Origin: Notolepis coatsorum
Taxonomy: Eukaryota > Chordata > Actinopteri > Aulopiformes > Paralepididae
Reading direction: 5' to 3'
DNA length: 64,000 nt
Assembly: GCA_963971535.1 (NCBI GenBank)
Contig: OZ020587.1
Location: 162,848,491-162,912,490, forward strand
The position numbers were made by a program, and so were the translations under genes. Position 1 is the first letter of the stretch. Each line of letters begins with the position of its first letter. Positions 41-60,945 of the stretch are shown piece by piece. Under the pieces are notes generated by a model, which had not been told where the DNA came from, ran no database searches, and was given only the letters and a program-made list of their open reading frames with translations.

Positions 41-47998
<47,958 letters not shown>

Positions 47999-50838: not shown

Positions 50839-51593
50839 ATTGTAACGAAGAGATCAGATTTGTGCCGAGTCACATTATGAGCTAAGAAATGCAGCGTGGA
50901 CGTTCGCTCATAGTCTTCCTGTTTCCCGGTTTGTCACATCAAACATTGCGTTGTCATTGTCCGTTTCATCTATTGTCTGTTTTTTTACGGTTTGTGAATT
51001 TTTTCCACTTTTGTCTGTAGTCCAGAGTTCCCACAGAAATTGCTAAATGAAATTCAATTACTTTCAAGTACTTTCCCAAGCAAATTTTTTTTATATTAAA
51101 AGGGCATTTAAAAGGATACAATTCACTTTTAACCTCTTAACCTGCACCCCCAAAAGTGGCCATTTTAGTTTTCGTTTTTGAGGACTGTATACTTTTTATG
51201 CAAACCAAAACAATGTGACATTCTGAAGTTTCTGATTCCAGAAGGATAATTCACTTTTAGTGCTAATGAAATAGAGTAACATAGGTCTGAACTTGAGTTG
51301 TAGAAAAACTTGTTACTCATGTTTTTCTGTAGTAGTTAGTAGTCCAGAGGTAGTATTTCCCCAGAAGGTGGTATGGCTTAAAAAACTCCTGAGATCCATA
51401 GCCTGAAGCCTGTAGTACATGTCCAAATTTCATAAAGATCCATTCAGAAATGAGTGATTAGGAGTGATTTTAGTAAACTGTGTACAAAAGAAAAACTCAG
51501 TTATATTATCGTATAGCTTATGCTCTGCACTCTAGTGGAACTATCCCTTTACCCACATCCGCTCCTCTACATAAGCGGGGTCGTGGCCACACT
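50839..51593. other. No gene; short ITR-like segment at the end
   Basis: 51554-51593 (CCACATCCGCTCCTCTACAT AAGCGGGG ...) resembles the TATA region of the following element's terminal repeat at about three quarters of bases, perhaps an older copy. Confidence 0.4.
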
Positions 51594-51806
51594 AACGTTA
51601 GGTTATGACTATAACCAAGTTCTGTCAACACTTAGTGAACGCTCAGCGTTCATTGCATATATCTCGCTTCAGCATATATACACTGAATAATTTCACAAAT
51701 GTACCTTTAAATGTCAGCATTCATCTGGCCACACCCCCATCCGCTTACCTATATAAGCAGGGGTGGTGCCACACACTCATCTCCTTCCCAACAAATTTCA
51801 TCACAA
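51594..51806. repeat. DIRS-like terminal repeat, low-coordinate end
   Basis: Starts AACGTTAGGTTATGACTATA. The first 45 bases are unique to this end; 51640 onward matches the other end inverted. Contains the palindrome AACGCTCAGCGTT. Confidence 0.75.
51750..51757 (+). promoter_or_regulatory. TATA box in terminal repeat
   Basis: TATATAAG preceded by a CCACACCCCC box and followed after about 25 bases by CACACTCATC. This is a plausible inward-facing Pol II promoter. The mirror copy is at 56824-56831 on the minus strand and would drive the element. Confidence 0.5.
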
Positions 51807-51842
51807 TGAATGAATGAAAAATCAAGGGCCTGCAGCGTCGTC

Positions 51843-51942
51843 TAAACGCTGAGCGTTCACTAAGTGTTGACAGAACTTGGTTATAGTCATAACCTAACGT
51901 TCTGTTCCACACTAGCTCACGCTCAGCGTTCATTGCATAATA
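51843..51942. repeat. Internal complementary region (joined-ends complement)
   Basis: 51843-51903 is the reverse complement of 51594-51655. 51900-51942 is the reverse complement of 56920-56962. The two parts meet at GTT, the complement of terminal AAC. Confidence 0.75.
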
Positions 51943-53091
51943 GGAGCTGAGCGGGAGCTAGAAGCTCGACAAATGTACCCCGCTGAGGCCCCCCACAACC
52001 ATCAGACCAGGGAGGGCCGAGCCCCCCCGACCCACCCTAATGGAGGGCACCCCCCCTATTGGTGGCTTCACGGGAGGGCGACGGACCCGACCGTGCGAAG
52101 AGGCACTCAAGCAACTCAACGCACAGGGTGAGCAGACCGTGGCTTGACCCCACGACTACACACACGCACAACCCGCATGCCACCCGGGAACGAACGGAGG
52201 GAAACAACCTCGTTACTGCCCCCAGAATCACGGGGTCAAGGGCAAACCCAACCCCGTGGCAAGGCCGTAGCAGCGGAGCGCGAAGGAAGACCCAGACCCA
52301 CCAAGAGGACTGGACTCCCTGGAATGGGGGCCCGGAGAAGTCCATGATGCCAGCATCAAGACCCCACCAGGTGGGCACGTAGTGCCGCGCCCCCCACATC
52401 GCCAGCGTATTCGGACAAAAGCCCCTCAGCCGAGCGGGCCCTGTCCCCCCAATAGTACACCGCCTGGCACACTGACCCTGCAACAGGCAGTCAGCATGGC
52501 CGTAAGCACACAAAAAAGGTTAACCAACGGAAGCAGGCAGCGCACCGGGGAAAAACCAGGCAACAGGCTATTAACCCTAGCCCGGAGACTGCAGACGAGA
52601 CAGGCGCCAGAGGGGACAGCTGAACACAGCCGCCCCGGCGGAAGGAGCGGAAGCTGGCGGCGTTGCATGACCAAGCCTCCATTCAAAAACCCCCACCCAG
52701 AGGGGTTGAGGCAGAGAAGGCTGACACGATTGGCAGACGTCATGAACGTGCAGGGGCACCCTCAACTGGTGAACCCGAGAGTTGACACTGCCCAAACACA
52801 CCAGGGAATCAAACACCTTGGCGTTACCCAATGCGGTGGTTGTTCCTATAACCCCTCAAGAAAAAACTCCAAAACACACCTGCGGGTATACACCGGCTAT
52901 ACCGCAGTACAAGTGTTTCAGTTTTCAAAAAAGGGTTAACCCAGGCCTACGGGTCGACGAAACATTACCTCGGACCGGGCCTGGCGATACGGGAAGCACA
53001 GGGTCACCAGAGGAGGTCAAAGACCACCCCAACAGGCCCCTCTTCGCCCATGCGTGAGAGAGGAGCGAAAAAGAATGGAGAACCAGCCCCT

Positions 53092-53210
53092 AAGCACACC
53101 GTACTTGGTATTCCCAGGCGGTCTCCCAACCAAGTACTAACCAGGACCAACCTGTGTAGCGGCCGAGATCCGACGAGATCGAGCGTGTACAGGTTGGCAT
53201 GGCCGTAAGC
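53092..53210 (-). ncRNA. 5S rRNA-like sequence
   Basis: Minus strand begins GCTTACGGCCATGCCAACCT and includes GATCTCGTCGGATCTCGG, TGGTTAGTACTTGG and TTGGGAGACCGCCTGGGAAT, aligned over the full about 119 nt of 5S rRNA with roughly four fifths identity by eye. The C box is nearly intact and the A box (GCTACACAGG) is altered, with one base missing after it. A TTTTT Pol III stop follows about 20 bases downstream (53068-53072). Probably a 5S pseudogene or 5S-derived promoter captured by the element. Confidence 0.85.
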
Positions 53211-55489
53211 CATTACGACAGTGCTGAGTAAAAACGTACCCAACCAGGGTCTCCATAGCGCTTAACCCTGTGACACCCGGACCGACCTGGCATTTTTCCC
53301 CCTGAAAAAAGCCCAAGTCCCTCAGGGTACCAGAACAGCAGATCTGCATCCCCGGCGGACAACGGGTTCAACTGATCCGGACCAGCGTGACCAGAACCAG
53401 TCCCGTGCCCTAACCACGCCGACATGCCTACTCCAGGAGAAAGGGCAGATATGCGTGTCTATCTTAACATGAAAAGAAGGCGCCACCCAGACGTTCGGGC
53501 GAACCGCGCCTGGTGGCCCACCCCAAGGGCGTGAGACCCCTCTACATATGTTCAGATCTATTCCGTCATCATCCCCCAGACATGAACGAGAATCCGTCGA
53601 TAACCAACCCAGGTCGTGGGATGTGGTCGTCGGAAGAGGAAAAACCCCCATCTCAGTCGCTTTATAAAAACGCTGTTTTAACCACAAGCAACCAAGGCGT
53701 GCCAGTCAGTCGCCTGTTTACAGCGAGCTAGCACTATACGTGCGTCGGGACACACCCCCATCAATGAACAGGCTATTTAGACCTGCCATTAAATCCCCAA
53801 GGCGCCCAGGGGAACGACAAGAGGGGTGTGACACTTCCTAACTCCAACACTTTTTGAATAGAAAAGAAGGAAGCATCAACAGTATGTATCCCAGTCTACA
53901 CAGCCGGGGGTAAAAAATTTTCACATTTTTACACCCCACCACCCTCCCATAGGAAGGAGACGGGGATCCCCAGAGAGACTTCCCACGCGAGCTGTACAGA
54001 TTGAAAAGAATATATTGCACCTTGAGCCATGTAAAAAATTGGTTTTAGGGCTCTCCGGGGAAGAGGCACTGAACCCATACACACTCAATAATCGAATTGA
54101 ATCGAATACATATACAATAGAATAGGACACCTTCTAGAGGGTCCACTCACTTTGACAGTCTGAGGAGGAAGGCTCTGTACTCTGATGGAGGCTCCCTCAC
54201 ATGGAAGAAGGAGTCCGAACTCACAGAAGGCCCGAATAGGCGCTTGGTGAGGAGGAGCCCTGACCACCCCCCTGAAACAGATCCATCACATGGACCTGAA
54301 CAGCACACGGAAGTCCTACCAACAGAGACGCGCACGGTGACGTACTCTATGGCGGGGGAATTTCTGCGGTGCACACGCCCAATATACCAGGCCGTGGGAC
54401 CAGGAAACTCCCCCCCCCCCCGTAACGTGCCGAACCGCAACGTGACGGGAACCTTGAAGGACAGGGGGTGTACCCCTGACCGACAGAAACAAGGGGGAGA
54501 GGAAAGGTTACCAGTTCACCCCTTTACGACCCCACACCCATGATATGATGTAATGACAAAAAGAGAATATGACACAGTCATATTCAGCTCTATGAAGCGT
54601 TTGACAGCTCCACACAGCGCATGAGCTAACCTGCTATCTGATTTTTACTAAGGAAAAAACACAGAATTGAGAGGGCTCTAAGAGCCCCGGTCCAACATAC
54701 ACATGTGCTTCTGTGGCCAGTCCAACCCAGTTGTAGGTCACATGACACACACAACCCATCATCACCTACAAAAAATGGCAAAAACACTCTACAGAGGAAC
54801 GCCGTTTTTCATAATGAGAGAATACATAATTCTCGATTAGTATCGGCCACAGGCCTTGCTAAGCACACACGACAGCGACCAAACAATCTTTTCTTTTAGG
54901 AAAATAAAGTTTCTACAGCAGTCTTAGCACAACCTCAGCAATCAAGCTAAGGGTTACATCGCATCCCTACCACACAAAAGACACAACGTAGTGCAACATG
55001 TCTGATAGGAGGATGAAAAAGTCCCCAGGGAACCGGGGGGAAACACAATCCTCTTATTTTACCCTTAATACGGCCAGTTAAAACAGGAAAACCTGTTAAT
55101 ATGTGAACACTGTTCATTGTCATCACAGGCTGAGAAAAGAACATTCTTTTACTCACTTGTCACTAAGCATAGCTTCATAGGTTAGTTACCTTAGTTGTGA
55201 GTACACGGTACATAACAACACACATGATGTTTCTCACACAACAACCAGATCATTTTCACATCTGTAACAACCCGATTTGCACGGAGAAGCTAACTGCCAG
55301 TGACAAAGACAGTTCACACATAACTCGCGTCGTATCCTAAATGCATTGCAGCAACACACGTTTTGGGAAAACATCGTCATTCACAAAACATTTAGAAAAG
55401 TAAAACCAGAAGACGTGTTATAAGGTCTGGTCAAACCTTGTCCTACCCGGAACGTAGATCAGCGAAGTGCAGTCACAAGACACCGTAGA

Positions 55490-55965
55490 ACACAGCCGTC
55501 CTGTGTTGTTCGATCCGGGCAGCGTCGCCGCTCCAACCAGTCGCTACAGTCCTCTTTGTTGACGCAATCCCCGTCCAGGCTCAGGGCAGGGTCGACGAAC
55601 ATCCCCTGTCAAGGATGACGTCGTAGTCAAGAGTGTAAAACATGTTACAATCAAAGCACGTACAACAGAGTAGCATTAAGCTAACGGCCGCTCCAACCGT
55701 TGGTCGCTATTACCCCTGCTCGCGAGACGCCGAGCGAACGGCGCACGCGACGAGAGGGGAGCTCACGGCGGCGCGCGAGTAGCAGAAGCTACCTCGCGCT
55801 GGCCTTGTCCGATAGCAGCAAGCTAACGTTTCCTAGTGATCACAACAGCTAGCGCCGCAGCTAACAGCTGACTGGCTAACAGTAGGCCCACCTCTGTAGG
55901 CCACGCAGTGATCCCAGCAGGCTAACGCCACAGCTAACAGCTGACTGGCTAACCGTAAGCTAAGC
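55490..55965. other. CpG-rich segment in DIRS-like element
   Basis: Dense CG (GCGAGACGCCGAGCGAACGG, GGCGGCGCGCGAG) and two copies of CACAGCTAACAGCTGACTGG CTAAC-type sequence. May be a CpG-island-like promoter or cargo. Confidence 0.45.
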
Positions 55966-56779
55966 AGCTATCACCTGAACTTCGTACACAATGACATAAC
56001 ACTCACCCAGACAGGCCGCCGTTCTGAAACTCTCCTCACTTTTTAAGCGAAAAGAGAAACAAGATGTCACACAGCTTTACAACGGTGATTTTACCAACAC
56101 CCGACGGAATCAGCACAATACCAAACTGGCTTGTGTAGCTGACTTGAACATGGATCTGCCGCTATCGCACATCCATGCACATATCTCCTTGTGAAGGAAT
56201 ACTCTCATTCGGATATGAAAGAAGGGGCTTAACACGGGACAGAGAGATATCCACTCGTCCAGAACACACAGGGATCACCAGTGTTAATGGTCGCGGCCCA
56301 CTAGTTAAAACTACAATGGTCTTCAGACCAAGGTCTTCTGTCGCCTAGGTGGCTGAACAAAGGACCCTAGCCTGGGGCCGGTTTCCATAAACATTGTCAA
56401 GTAGCCCCCATAGCACTAACAGACAAGTGAAGCCCGCCAGCAACAGTACTCACCTAACCTGAAACCCACCGCTTCTCACAACAGCGGCGCGTCCGACAGT
56501 TCAGCTGTGGCCTGACAGGTTTCACCCCAACAAACACAGCAAGGAACTGCAGTTGAGAAGCATGCAGCGGCGTGCTCCCAATACGAAAACCGGTGGAGGG
56601 TTTTTAGAATGATCACCATCTTCCAGACACTCCAGTGACGAAGACAACATTGCCGTATTTTCTCGAAAATAGTGAGAGAGAAAATAAAGATATGATGTCA
56701 ACGTATCTCCTTGTTCTTCCTTTCCTTGTAAACAATATTTTTCTCCACGTCAAGTGGGCATATGAGCAACACGTTGCTT

Positions 56780-56962
56780 GTGATGAAATTTGAGAAGGAG
56801 ATGAGTGTGTGGCACCACCCCTGCTTATATAGGTAAGCGGATGGGGGTGTGGCCAGATGAATGCTGGCATTTAAAGGTACATTTGTGAAATTATTCAGTG
56901 TATATATGCTGAAGCGAGATATATGCAATGAACGCTGAGCGTGAGCTAGTGTGGAACAGAAC
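56780..56962. repeat. DIRS-like terminal repeat, high-coordinate end
   Basis: Inverted copy of 51640-51806 with few changes. The outer 20 bases (to ...GTGGAACAGAAC) differ from the other end. Confidence 0.75.
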
Positions 56963-57069
56963 AGCTCTTTCCCTATTTTCACCACCGAAAAAGTGCCTGT
57001 ATACACCACTTTAGTTTAGTGCCGAAATAGTTATTGGAAAGGAGTTACGTTATTGGAGAAAAGGAGCTG

Positions 57070-58364
57070 TGTTGTGAAGGGCCAGATTAAAGCTGAGAAT
57101 CTACATTTATTGTTTTATATACATTGTATATTATTTATATATACACGGTATATCCCTTTAAACCTGCGTTCGAACCATAGTAATATTCGCTCTCCTTATT
57201 GGATAACGCCCGTAGGCGCCAGCCCGCAAGCCCCCAAAGTCAGGTTCAAAGACAAGCCCAGGCATGTCGTAACATGCCCGGAGACAGCGTATTGATTCCA
57301 GACAAGAACTGAGGTTTGGGACTAGATAATCACTTAATTATATATACGGCGCAGGTGCGCACAGCAGCAGTTCGTGTGACAAGTTGTTCGGTAACAGTGA
57401 AGTGAGCAGCCGTGCGTCTAACAGAGCGTTGAGAACCACGTGCGAATTGAATAGTAAAGTGTCAGAGTTTAATGCAGTAACGTCAAGTTTGACCTAATTT
57501 AATGTGAAGTAAATAGTCGTTCATTTATTGTATATCGTGCCAACCACAGTTCGTTTGTGTGTAGCATTACCCAGCGGTTCGTTCGTGTTAGCTAGTGGAC
57601 CTTAGCCAGTGCGCGTGGACTAAATACCTTAGTACCAGCACACGAGGAGGCCTAGTCGGAGAACCTGCTGGACATGTGCACAGGAGAACCAGCGGCGGCG
57701 ATTGCAGAACCATTACTGGTTGGATTATATTGATTGTGGAACGTGTTACCCGGAGAAGAGCATCGTTAATCTCCACTGTCGTTTGGGATTTAACCTCGTG
57801 AGGATTTACATTCGGGCTGGCCTCATGGACCGAGGCTGGCTGGCTATCATCGTTTGCTATCGAGCATTGGATTACAGTTATTGCTTTGTTGCTGATCGTT
57901 GGATTTACAGGGACTGGCTTCTGTACGTGAACCCCCTTATTCTTCATTGAATCAGACTGAGTATCCGAACATTCCTCTATCCTCTAGACCTTACAACTCT
58001 GAGAGGAACCCAGTGTCTCCAGGTGGTACCAGCGTTACCTTCTATAATTGCTATTATACGCCAGGTGGCGTCAGCCTAGTACCCATCGTAGGAATCATTC
58101 TATTCCCAGTGACTCATGCTACTGACTGACTTTATGCATATTCTTCGCCATACAAGCGCGACCCTAATTCTCATTCTGTAACCTAATGTTGCATAATAAT
58201 AAAATACCCTCAAATACTATTTATTTGCCAATGCCGTGTTATTATGAGTGTCCACCATATCTATTCGATGTACTGTCTGGCCAGTAATTAAAGTACATAC
58301 CTAGCAGTGGTTTAATCTATCACAATCTTTAATACAGTCAGGGTTTTGTAACCCCTCAGTTACA
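57070..58364 (+). repeat. BEL copy B 5' LTR
   Basis: Starts TGTTGTGAAGGGCCAGATTA, ends CCCCTCAGTTACA, 1295 bp. It aligns in patches with the copy A LTR (start, the ATTGGA...GGCGCCAG block, the end). Five bases before it are AGCTG. Confidence 0.85.
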
Positions 58365-58659: not shown

Positions 58660-60945
58660 CAAGCGGGACATGACGTGACCAACCAGCCGAACACTTCTTT
58701 ATCCACCGCAAAGATCGGACAGCAGAGTCCGGTAAACAACGTGGAGGAGGTATTGCCTTCATGTTTAACAACAATTGGAGCGATCCAACTAACGTGAAGG
58801 AACTATCCAACCACTGCTGCCCAGACCTGGAATATATAACCATCAAGTGTCGTCCTTTCTTCCTCCCGAGGGAGTTAACGGCGATCATCCTTGTAGGAGT
58901 GTATATTCCACCGCAAGCCAGTAACAACGTCGCGCTCTCCAGACTCCACGACGAGGTAAATAGAATACAAGCGGCGAACGTTAACGCCGCCATTTTGGTG
59001 CTGGGTGATTTCAATAGCGCCAATCTGAGAAAGGTATTACCTGACTTCTATCAGCATGTGACTTGCAACACCAGAGGCGGTAACATCCTAGATCACTGTT
59101 ACACGCAATTTAAAGGTGGCTACAAGGCTTATTCTGATAGTGGCTTTGGTAAATCAGTCTGTGCCGACCAACTGGCCCCAGTATTCACTGACATATTTAA
59201 CCTGTCCTTAGAACAGGCTGTCATCCCCACCTGCCTGAAGAAGTCCACTATTATCCCTGTACCCAAAAAATCCAAGCCTGCTTGCCTCAACGACTACCGC
59301 CCTGTAGCTCTCACCTCCATAGCCATGAAGTGCTTTGAGAAGCTAGTAAAGGGCTACATCTGCTCCTCCCTCCCCATCAACATGGACCCCCTGCAATTTG
59401 CATACCGCCCCAACAGGTCCACGGAGGACGCCATAGCCCATGTGCTGCACACAGCAGCATCACACCTGGACAAGAGGCAGGGGAACTATGTGAGAATGCT
59501 ATTCATCGACTACAGCTCGGCATTCAATACCATAGTCCCCTCCATACTCATAGCCAAGCTCAGGGACCTGGGCTTGAACTATGACCTCTGCCAGTGGGTC
59601 TTGGACTTCCTGACTGGCAGACCCCAGGTGGTGAGAGCAGGCAACTGCACCTCCTCATCCATCACCCTCAACATAGGGGCCCCCCAGGGCTGTGTTCTGA
59701 GTCCCCTCCTCTACTCCCTGTACACACACGACTGTGTGGCTCAGCGGAGTAGCAATACAATCATCAAATTTGCTGACGACACAGTGGTGGTGGGCCTGAT
59801 CTCTGCCAACGACGAGAGGGCCTACCTGGAAGAGGTCAAGGTCCTGGCGGGATGGTGCCAGGAAAACAGCCTCTCCCTGAACGTCAGCAAAACAAAGGAG
59901 ATGATTGTGGACTTCAGGAGGTCGGGGGTCAAGGACTACAGCCCCCTCAGCATCGACGGGGCACCGGTTGAGAGAGTCAACAGCTTTAAGTACCTCGGAG
60001 CCTACATATCCGAGGACTTGACATGGACCACACACATTGACAGTGTTGTGAAGAAGGCACGACAACGCCTCTACTTCCTCAGGCGCCTGAGGAAGTTCCA
60101 AGTCAGTCAGAAGATCCTTAAGAACTTCTACTCATGTACAATAGAGAGCATCTTGACCGGCAACATCACCTCCTGGTTTGGAAATAGCACTGCACAAGAC
60201 CGAAGCAGACTACAAAGAGTGACACGTTCAGCCTAACGCACAATTGGAGGGGGGCTCCCCACCCTCCAGAACATTTACAACAAGCGTTGCAAGGGCAAGG
60301 CTAAGAGAATCATTAAAGACTCCAGTCACCCGAACAACTGCCTCTTTGAACTGCTGCGGTCAGGCAAGCGATACCGGAGTCTCAAGGCGAGCACAGAAAG
60401 ACTCAGAAGAAGCTTCTATCCCCAGGCCATCAGGCTGCTAAACGAACAATGAATGAACACTACACAACAACAACCACCAAACGCACATAGCACACACATC
60501 CACACGCACACACTCACTTTAAACAAATACACTGTAGCACCCACTCCACACACTTTATAGCACACACCCACTTTAAACAAACACACTGTAGCACCCACTC
60601 CCCACACTTTATATTTATTGATGAAGGATTGCACTACAACTCGTACACCTTACTGTAAATTGTACCTAAATTGTACCTCATCCCATTTCTGCTTTGCACT
60701 ATATAGTACTGTACATTAGTACACTGCATAGTATTGTATATTATATGGTAACTCAGAACATTGTACATATGTCTATACCGAACACTGTGACCTCATTTTC
60801 TTCTTCTAAATTACATGCTATACTATGTTATTTGATACTATCTTGTCTAGCACAGTCTCTGGAGCGTAACAGTAAGAAGCATTTTGTATGAAAGTATTCT
60901 GTACTTCTGTATGACAACTATTAAAGAAACTTGAAACTTGAAACT
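58660..60945 (+). mobile_element. CR1/L2/Rex-type LINE inserted in BEL copy B
   Basis: 5'-truncated LINE holding an endonuclease remnant, a reverse transcriptase frame, a 3' untranslated region (about 60450-60945) and an (ACTTGAA)n tail. BEL sequence resumes at about 60946. Target duplication not resolved. Confidence 0.85.
58761..60236 (+). pseudogene. LINE ORF2: partial endonuclease fused to reverse transcriptase
   Basis: 491 codons. Residues 1-115 are the APE-type endonuclease middle (V-Y-I-P-P-Q-A, G-D-F-N). At about residue 127 it jumps in frame to the RT, lacking the endonuclease end and the linker. RT motifs follow: [33 protein letters not shown] and F-A-D-D-T. It ends R-S-A-stop at 60236; the remaining C-terminus (I-I-K-D-S-S-H-P to R-L-L-N) continues in another frame to about 60452, so a one-base shift ended it. 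Confidence 0.9.

Follow-up and report, generated by a model that had tools for sequence, protein, structure and literature searches.

Structure of the element

The DNA analysed here, called the window, is a stretch of 64,000 nt from Notolepis coatsorum (contig OZ020587.1, positions 162,848,491 to 162,912,490, forward strand). At 51594-56962 it carries an element of 5369 bp, the window copy of a repeat that we have designated family A. By its ends this element is a DIRS retrotransposon; by its content it is not an autonomous one. Its sense strand is the minus strand (5' end at 56962, 3' end at 51594), because the internal complementary region (ICR) lies at the 3' end in those DIRS of the same genome that encode a reverse transcriptase (RT). 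The ends were set by the ICR of the element and by its other copies.

A first-pass annotation, made from the letters of the window, had described inverted terminal repeats (ITRs) with differing outer edges, and a repeat search of the sequence confirmed this with inverted relations of 153, 57 and 41 nt. The features that follow are on the minus strand unless stated otherwise. The conserved ITR is present as a 3' copy (51639-51791) and a 5' copy (56790-56942), identical at 151 of 153 positions (2 differences). Outside it lie the divergent ITR parts, at 51619-51638 in the 3' end and at 56943-56962 in the 5' end. The former matches its 5' counterpart only partially and has an exact copy in the ICR; the latter starts with GTT in sense orientation. 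The 3' end continues with a right extension (rE, 51594-51618), AACGTTAGGTTATGACTATAACCAA, which is partly palindromic and a candidate recombinase site. A right extension, and ITRs that are conserved in one part and divergent in another, define the termini of DIRS1-like elements in the accessible text of PMC3266345.

The ICR consists of two overlapping parts. The right ICR (51845-51901) is the reverse complement of the 3' outer edge 51594-51650 (57/57 nt), the left ICR (51899-51939) that of the 5' outer edge 56922-56962 (41/41 nt), and the two share GTT at 51899-51901. A scripted join of the right end to the left end via a single AAC reproduced the reverse complement of 51845-51939 at 95/95 nt, which is far beyond chance. 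The ICR thus corresponds to both outer edges joined at a 3-bp circular junction, as it does in DIRS1-like elements. The complementarity at AAC/GTT noticed in the first-pass annotation was therefore exact, but its span, given as 51843-51942, was 2-3 nt too long on each side.

A candidate TATA box for the sense transcript, TATATAAG, was read directly in the sequence at 56824-56831, with a predicted start near 56802. Its mirror in the 3' ITR (51750-51757, plus strand) points inward and would give an antisense start near 51779. Between the ICR and the 5' ITR lies an interior of about 4.85 kb (51940-56789), which is common to family A and was found to be noncoding by profile, copy, shuffle and tblastn comparisons. 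On its plus strand A exceeds T and C exceeds G over most of the length, so a sense RNA would be U- and G-rich. The interior also holds two 40-nt direct repeats at 55848-55960 (90% identical, starts 73 nt apart) that contain GCTAAC words.

Copies of family A in the genome

As the first-pass annotation had proposed, the assembly of the same genome (3.42 Gb, 4787 contigs) was searched with a terminal repeat, namely the left 357 nt of the window element, and further copies were found. The 40 best of 2588 first-look candidates were scored, the window's own place included, and all 40 were 99-100% identical over at least 351 nt. First-look counts here and below (2588, 5569, 1924 and 45,898) are not copy numbers, since scoring was limited to the best 40 or 150. 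Twenty of the 39 places outside the window were fetched for comparison; L001-L008 were used for lengths only, and L029-L036 were left out altogether. One fetched copy, L021, duplicates the L020 locus; it was omitted from the pairwise difference and the 5S rate (20 rows with the window copy) and kept in the boundary, ICR and ITR counts.

All 20 fetched copies contained the window interior, whole or partial, in pieces that were 95.7-99.7% identical (mostly 97-99%), and they showed private deletions and insertions. L019 was strongly rearranged (3544 bp, part inverted). The mean pairwise difference was 1.4% (range 0.55-2.1%, 20 rows). The 95-nt ICR was found in all 20, identical in 18 and with one change in 2. 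Single differences between an end and the ICR were few, and each was confined to one copy or to L020/L021, the duplicated locus. Multiple copies with common ends and a noncoding interior are what characterises a non-autonomous family. The common interior and the nearly unchanged ends and ICR indicate that family A multiplied in its noncoding state, and judging by these sequences it was probably recently active.

Boundaries and target site

The AAC that the first-pass annotation had placed at both ends of the window element was borne out (plus strand, 51594-51596 and 56960-56962). Counting the window copy, 21 left ends were read: 20 have AAC and one, in L018, has ATC. The right end is GAACAGAAC in all 19 copies in which it was reached (all but L010 and L027). 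AAC is thus found on both sides in 18 of the 19 copies with both ends, and no copy with a different boundary at the right was seen. By eye, T precedes AAC at 12 of 18 independent sites.

An empty site was available inside repeats. L023 sits in a minisatellite whose units measure about 50 bp, and six uninterrupted units match its joined flanks at 26/27 positions with AAC present once. L019 sits in another repeat, where the joined flanks match at 24/27, again with one AAC. No comparable unoccupied repeat match was found around the insertion of L025. The single AAC in unoccupied units fits a crossover inside AAC. The claim that there is no target duplication holds for everything beyond AAC; the 3-bp AAC itself flanks the element on both sides, and the unoccupied target carries it once. 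Integration of DIRS1-like elements likewise uses a trinucleotide already present and produces no target duplication.

Two observations concern the flanks. In the window, the flanks 51540-51593 and 56963-57107, when joined via one AAC, are similar to the promoter portion of the ITR of the element itself. The joined flanks reached a local score of 70 to the left ITR region and 90 to the right, and 500 shuffles against the left reached at most 53; the left flank alone scored 53 and the right flank alone 22. The window copy may have inserted into the remnant of a related DIRS end. Around the duplicated copy L020/L021, in the flanks on either side, frames of the DIRS loci described below had 32 and 35 tblastn matches, from which this copy seems to be inserted into an autonomous-type DIRS.

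RT-encoding DIRS and a second noncoding family

The genome was searched with a piece of DIRS reverse transcriptase. The best 150 of 45,898 first-look candidates were scored, and all 150 matched at 55-59% identity (E <= 1.6e-57), many of them in long open frames; from the number of first-look candidates DIRS may be unusually abundant in this genome. PF05869 (Dam methylase), tried as a handle on DIRS, had no match in the genome, and an exact pattern scan of viral contigs gave no match.

Six DIRS loci (L037-L042, 51 kb in all) were read. ITRs of some 170 nt, with an ICR close to the 3' end, are present in three of them (L039, L041 and L042). A single inverted pair, of 76 nt, was found in L040, and no inverted repeat within the fetched stretches of L037 and L038. 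The DIRS of L039 and L042 measure 5511 and 5610 bp. In L042 one open frame holds RVT_1 above the Pfam cut-off and RNase H just below it, and Pfam found nothing in three other frames. L039, L041 and L042 share ITRs and a 3'-end ICR with family A but differ from it in their long frames (in L042 with RVT_1) and in the sequences of ITR and promoter. The link in sequence is the extreme 3' end. With both strands of the six loci compared, its first 28 nt (51594-51621) match at 24/28 five times, namely in the ICR and at the 3' end of both L039 and L042 and once in L040. Everywhere else in the 51 kb the match stays below 20/28, and L037, L038 and L041 are without a 24/28 stretch.

The RT-encoding DIRS of L039 (1085-6596, sense orientation) is nested inside a copy of a second noncoding family, B. 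Over several aligned stretches this copy is 73-82% identical to the family A element (about 18-27% different). It is without large parts of the family A interior, no ICR was found in it, and near its 3' end it matches the end of the nested DIRS at 27 of 28 aligned columns. A 701-nt piece served as query, and 40 of 5569 candidates, the best ones, were scored; leaving aside the query's own place, the other 39 were 95-98% identical. Families A and B thus each have at least 39 further scored copies.

From the two ends of the family B copy we predicted what its junction should look like (90 nt). This sequence was matched at all 40 scored places (the best of 1924 candidates), with 94-100% identity over 79-90 nt. 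For seven of these junctions a family B interior is found 0.4-2.3 kb upstream on the same strand; an eighth has a family B interior next to it on the opposite strand. This eighth junction, and one of a pair on C32, each have a partner junction in inverted orientation 5.7 kb away. Inverted pairs of the junction were seen at C32:55018544/55024207 (5.66 kb apart) and C48:554998/560681 (5.68 kb apart); by their coordinates, these are as expected for copies joined head to tail at one GTT.

Coding content of family A

The first-pass annotation had seen no motif of RT, RNase H, methylase (MT) or tyrosine recombinase (YR), which Pfam and tblastn bore out for the window copy. When its six frames were searched against Pfam, with stops replaced by X, no domain passed its cut-off; a match to CNRIP1 in one frame (0.066) fell short of the CNRIP1 cut-off. 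When 28 open frames of the six DIRS loci were compared with the element by tblastn the best E value was only 0.032, and in the same comparison the L042 frames matched the other five loci at high identity. Since Pfam also finds no YR in L042, Pfam alone cannot exclude a YR. With no domain above cut-off and no frame like those of the six loci, family A is not an autonomous DIRS: the DIRS1-like set of proteins (GAG, RT, RNase H, often MT, and YR) was not found in it.

The longest interior frames, of 222 and 160 aa, were equalled by 17 and 198 of 300 shuffled versions, and coding capacity was rejected for them as not beyond shuffles. Four examined frames were open and in frame in 14, 17, 16 and 15 of 20 rows. 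Private insertions occur in five fetched copies. Five insertions longer than 1 kb were scanned by Pfam in six frames, which covered all private insertions except 498 nt in L018. Those of L013 and L027 contain a partial reverse transcriptase with an ALKBH8_N domain, at different insertion points; we take these pieces to be truncated long interspersed nuclear elements (LINEs). The other three had no Pfam match at E 0.01. Within the element spans of the 20 fetched copies there were no DIRS-protein matches beyond these LINE-like pieces, nor was an intact transposase seen between the same ends; the copies carry the common noncoding interior.

Comparison of the two ITRs

In 19 rows with both ends, the two ITRs of each copy were compared. 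At positions 1-149 differences are scattered, with at most 3 per copy: two copies differ at position 35, the one in the opposite direction to the other, two copies with shifted alignments differ at position 149, and every other difference occurs in a single copy. Position 150 is C in one ITR and T in the other in 17 of the 19 rows; the remaining two (L024 and L028) are those with shifted alignments and the difference at 149. A 3-nt indel follows position 150 in the window copy. The predicted transcription start corresponds to ITR position 141, about 29 nt past TATATAAG. The pattern at position 150 is a possible signature of reverse transcription, in which the part of the ITR upstream of the start would be regenerated from the other ITR in each cycle.

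Interpretation and alternative explanations

We conclude that the window element belongs to a non-autonomous family of DIRS retrotransposons that was recently active and would be mobilised in trans by DIRS proteins, and we put the probability of this at about 0.9. The first-pass annotation had arrived at a non-autonomous DIRS, which is supported by the exact ICR, the common noncoding interior, the AAC target and the presence of RT-encoding DIRS with a 24/28 terminal match. Most likely family A uses the enzymes of intact DIRS in the same genome. Transcription by RNA polymerase II would begin at the TATA box of the 5' ITR and extend across the interior and the ICR into the 3' ITR, covering most of it. 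The transcript would be copied by a DIRS reverse transcriptase provided in trans, with the 3' ITR and the ICR as templates for the missing outer edges, so that a circle forms in which the ends meet at AAC. A tyrosine recombinase of DIRS, likewise provided in trans, would then cross this AAC with a genomic AAC, leaving AAC on both sides. The interior would serve as replicable filler of about the length of an autonomous DIRS, together with any signals that DIRS proteins need.

Several findings weigh against this interpretation. An autonomous DIRS with family A's own ITR was not found among the six loci, in which the ITR beyond the terminal 28 nt is matched only through the family B copy flanking the DIRS of L039. 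Pfam detected no tyrosine recombinase in L042 either. The transcription start is predicted from the TATA box alone, and the DIRS model offers no explanation for a T-rich sense strand. Finally, the 20 copies were the best left-end matches, so the sample is biased towards young and intact copies.

Inverted repeats with AAC on both sides would also be found in a non-autonomous DNA transposon with a strict 3-bp target, either of the DDE type or a Crypton-like tyrosine recombinase element. It is not evident what such a transposon would gain from an internal copy of its joined ends, which is kept in 20/20 further copies and was found for family B. Target duplications of DDE transposons have a fixed length and a sequence that varies by site, except in TA- or TTAA-specific groups. 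Here AAC is fixed (18 of the 19 copies with both ends) and not palindromic, and the DDE type was rejected for lack of a site-variable duplication. The near-fixed ITR difference at position 150, with none before it, points to reverse transcription, and the terminal 28 nt match RT-encoding DIRS. We therefore regard a DNA transposon as very improbable. Ngaro or PAT-like elements, with split direct repeats (A1-B1-A2-B2), were rejected, as the repeats are inverted and accompanied by an ICR.

An autonomous element with proteins too novel to be recognised could account for a common interior of about 4.85 kb, and its 222-aa frame was reached by only 17/300 shuffles. Yet the minus-strand maximum of 160 aa was reached by 198/300, the four frames are intact in no more than 14 to 17 of 20 rows at 1-2% divergence, nothing resembles the frames of the DIRS loci, and the family B copy is without large interior parts, all of which makes this highly unlikely. 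That the window holds a chance relic of a decayed autonomous DIRS agrees with the lack of recognisable coding frames but is refuted by the 20/20 other copies with the same noncoding interior (mostly 97-99%) and nearly unchanged ends and ICR; its likelihood is practically nil.

A 5S-rRNA-like block

In sense orientation, 53210-53093 (minus strand) gave a full-length match to Rfam family RF00001 (67.2 bits, cut-off 38, E 5.5e-12). The block is present in 20/20 copies at 97-100% identity, in L017 as 112 of 118 nt. A DNA search with the 5S region skipped very common words, so its 7 matches say nothing on copy number. At the corresponding site the family B copy has about 70 nt instead of 152, and the block is largely missing. 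The 39 other scored family B places match through this site; the query, being without the block, favoured such copies. Family A may have gained the block, or family B may have lost it long ago.

We claim no function for the block; that it works is a hypothesis. It could act in a non-autonomous DIRS as an internal RNA polymerase III promoter, or as a fold that binds ribosomal or 5S-handling proteins and so places the RNA close to nascent DIRS proteins. The full-length match in sense orientation and its retention in 20/20 copies fit this. So does the 3' half of the Rfam alignment, which looks better conserved; the C box lies in the 3' half of 5S. Parallels exist in the long terminal repeats (LTRs) of Cassandra, Helenus and Ajax (PMC10886601, in the part accessible to us). 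Against it, slower evolution was rejected, the block showing no reduced rate of change relative to the remaining interior (32nd percentile), and its RNA fold is unremarkable (z -1.08). Moreover, family B multiplied with most of the block missing at that site, although its 40 best matches came from a query without the block, and the block sits inside the element and not in its repeats as in Cassandra. We consider a working block quite unlikely. Similarly speculative, and in our view unlikely, is a wider scenario in which A and B are long-lived protein-free parasites of DIRS with a separate DIRS-sized genome, whose recombinase sites track those of autonomous DIRS. Family A would then have captured a 5S domain that helps its RNA to reach DIRS proteins, as a counterpart of Cassandra.

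Comparison with known elements

Long non-autonomous LTR retrotransposons of the LARD or Dasheng type have a long noncoding interior that is moved in trans; they have direct LTRs, tRNA priming and a DDE integrase. Family A resembles them in its long noncoding interior and differs in its inverted repeats, its ICR and a presumed tyrosine recombinase.

In structure it is closest to the fish DIRS1-like elements GaDIRS1, GaDIRS2 and TnDIRS1a (Piednoel et al. 2011, PMC3266345). According to the available text, these start with GTT, have an AAC junction and no left extension, and measure 5322-5931 bp, with a divergent ITR of 19-21, a conserved ITR of 144-148, an rE of 26-27 and ICRs of 36-46 and 56-57. 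The values for family A are 20, 153 (2 differences), 25, and 41 and 57, in 5369 bp. Both recombine at a 3-bp match without target duplication, but DIRS1-like elements encode GAG, RT/RNase H/MT and YR, whereas family A encodes nothing recognisable. The word 'autonomous', also inside other words, has 0 occurrences in the text of PMC3266345.

Cassandra, Helenus and Ajax (Kojima 2024, PMC10886601) carry 5S- or tRNA-like sequence in direct LTRs, in elements of 311-1263 bp. Like family A they are non-autonomous with a small-RNA-like sequence, but the block of family A lies inside a 5.4-kb DIRS-type element; the accessible text contains no word beginning with DIRS. SIRE of Trypanosoma cruzi, a truncated VIPER relative, is described as a non-autonomous version of a tyrosine recombinase retrotransposon (PMC6681497, available part). 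Unlike family A it is about 435 bp long (185 + 30 + 220), is built for the most part from the ends of VIPER and has split direct repeats, but neither ITR nor ICR nor a large unrelated interior.

Our first-pass annotation had called the family possibly undescribed, and within the literature searched (Repbase and some subscription journals lay outside its scope) no non-autonomous DIRS of this type was found and the phrase 'non-autonomous DIRS' was absent. In the accessible parts of PMC8498967, PMC9210276, PMC12477816, PMC3783388, PMC5753468, PMC9341512 and PMC7599744 there was no noncoding DIRS family with ITR and ICR; the first of these mentions LARD and TRIM contigs, not tied to DIRS.

Families A and B would extend long non-autonomous partners to tyrosine-recombinase retrotransposons with ITRs and an ICR. 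Being protein-free, they suggest which sequences are sufficient for DIRS replication (ends, ICR and promoter), and free of coding constraint they are a clean substrate for locating re-copied ends. The DIRS replication scheme, described in the available part of PMC5633606 as not fully proven experimentally, becomes a set of sequence predictions, one of which, the family B junction, was made here and found. The 5S-like block adds a concrete hypothesis that can be tested.

Other features of the window

A pair of direct repeats (14117-14568 and 23661-24112) surrounds a 1782-aa frame at 14731-20079 (minus strand), which we take to be BEL/Pao-like. A diverged relative (70-73%) of this repeat is found at 57108-57540, just right of the family A element. 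Further on, a 520-aa open frame at 58674-60236 (plus strand) is presumably a LINE reverse transcriptase.

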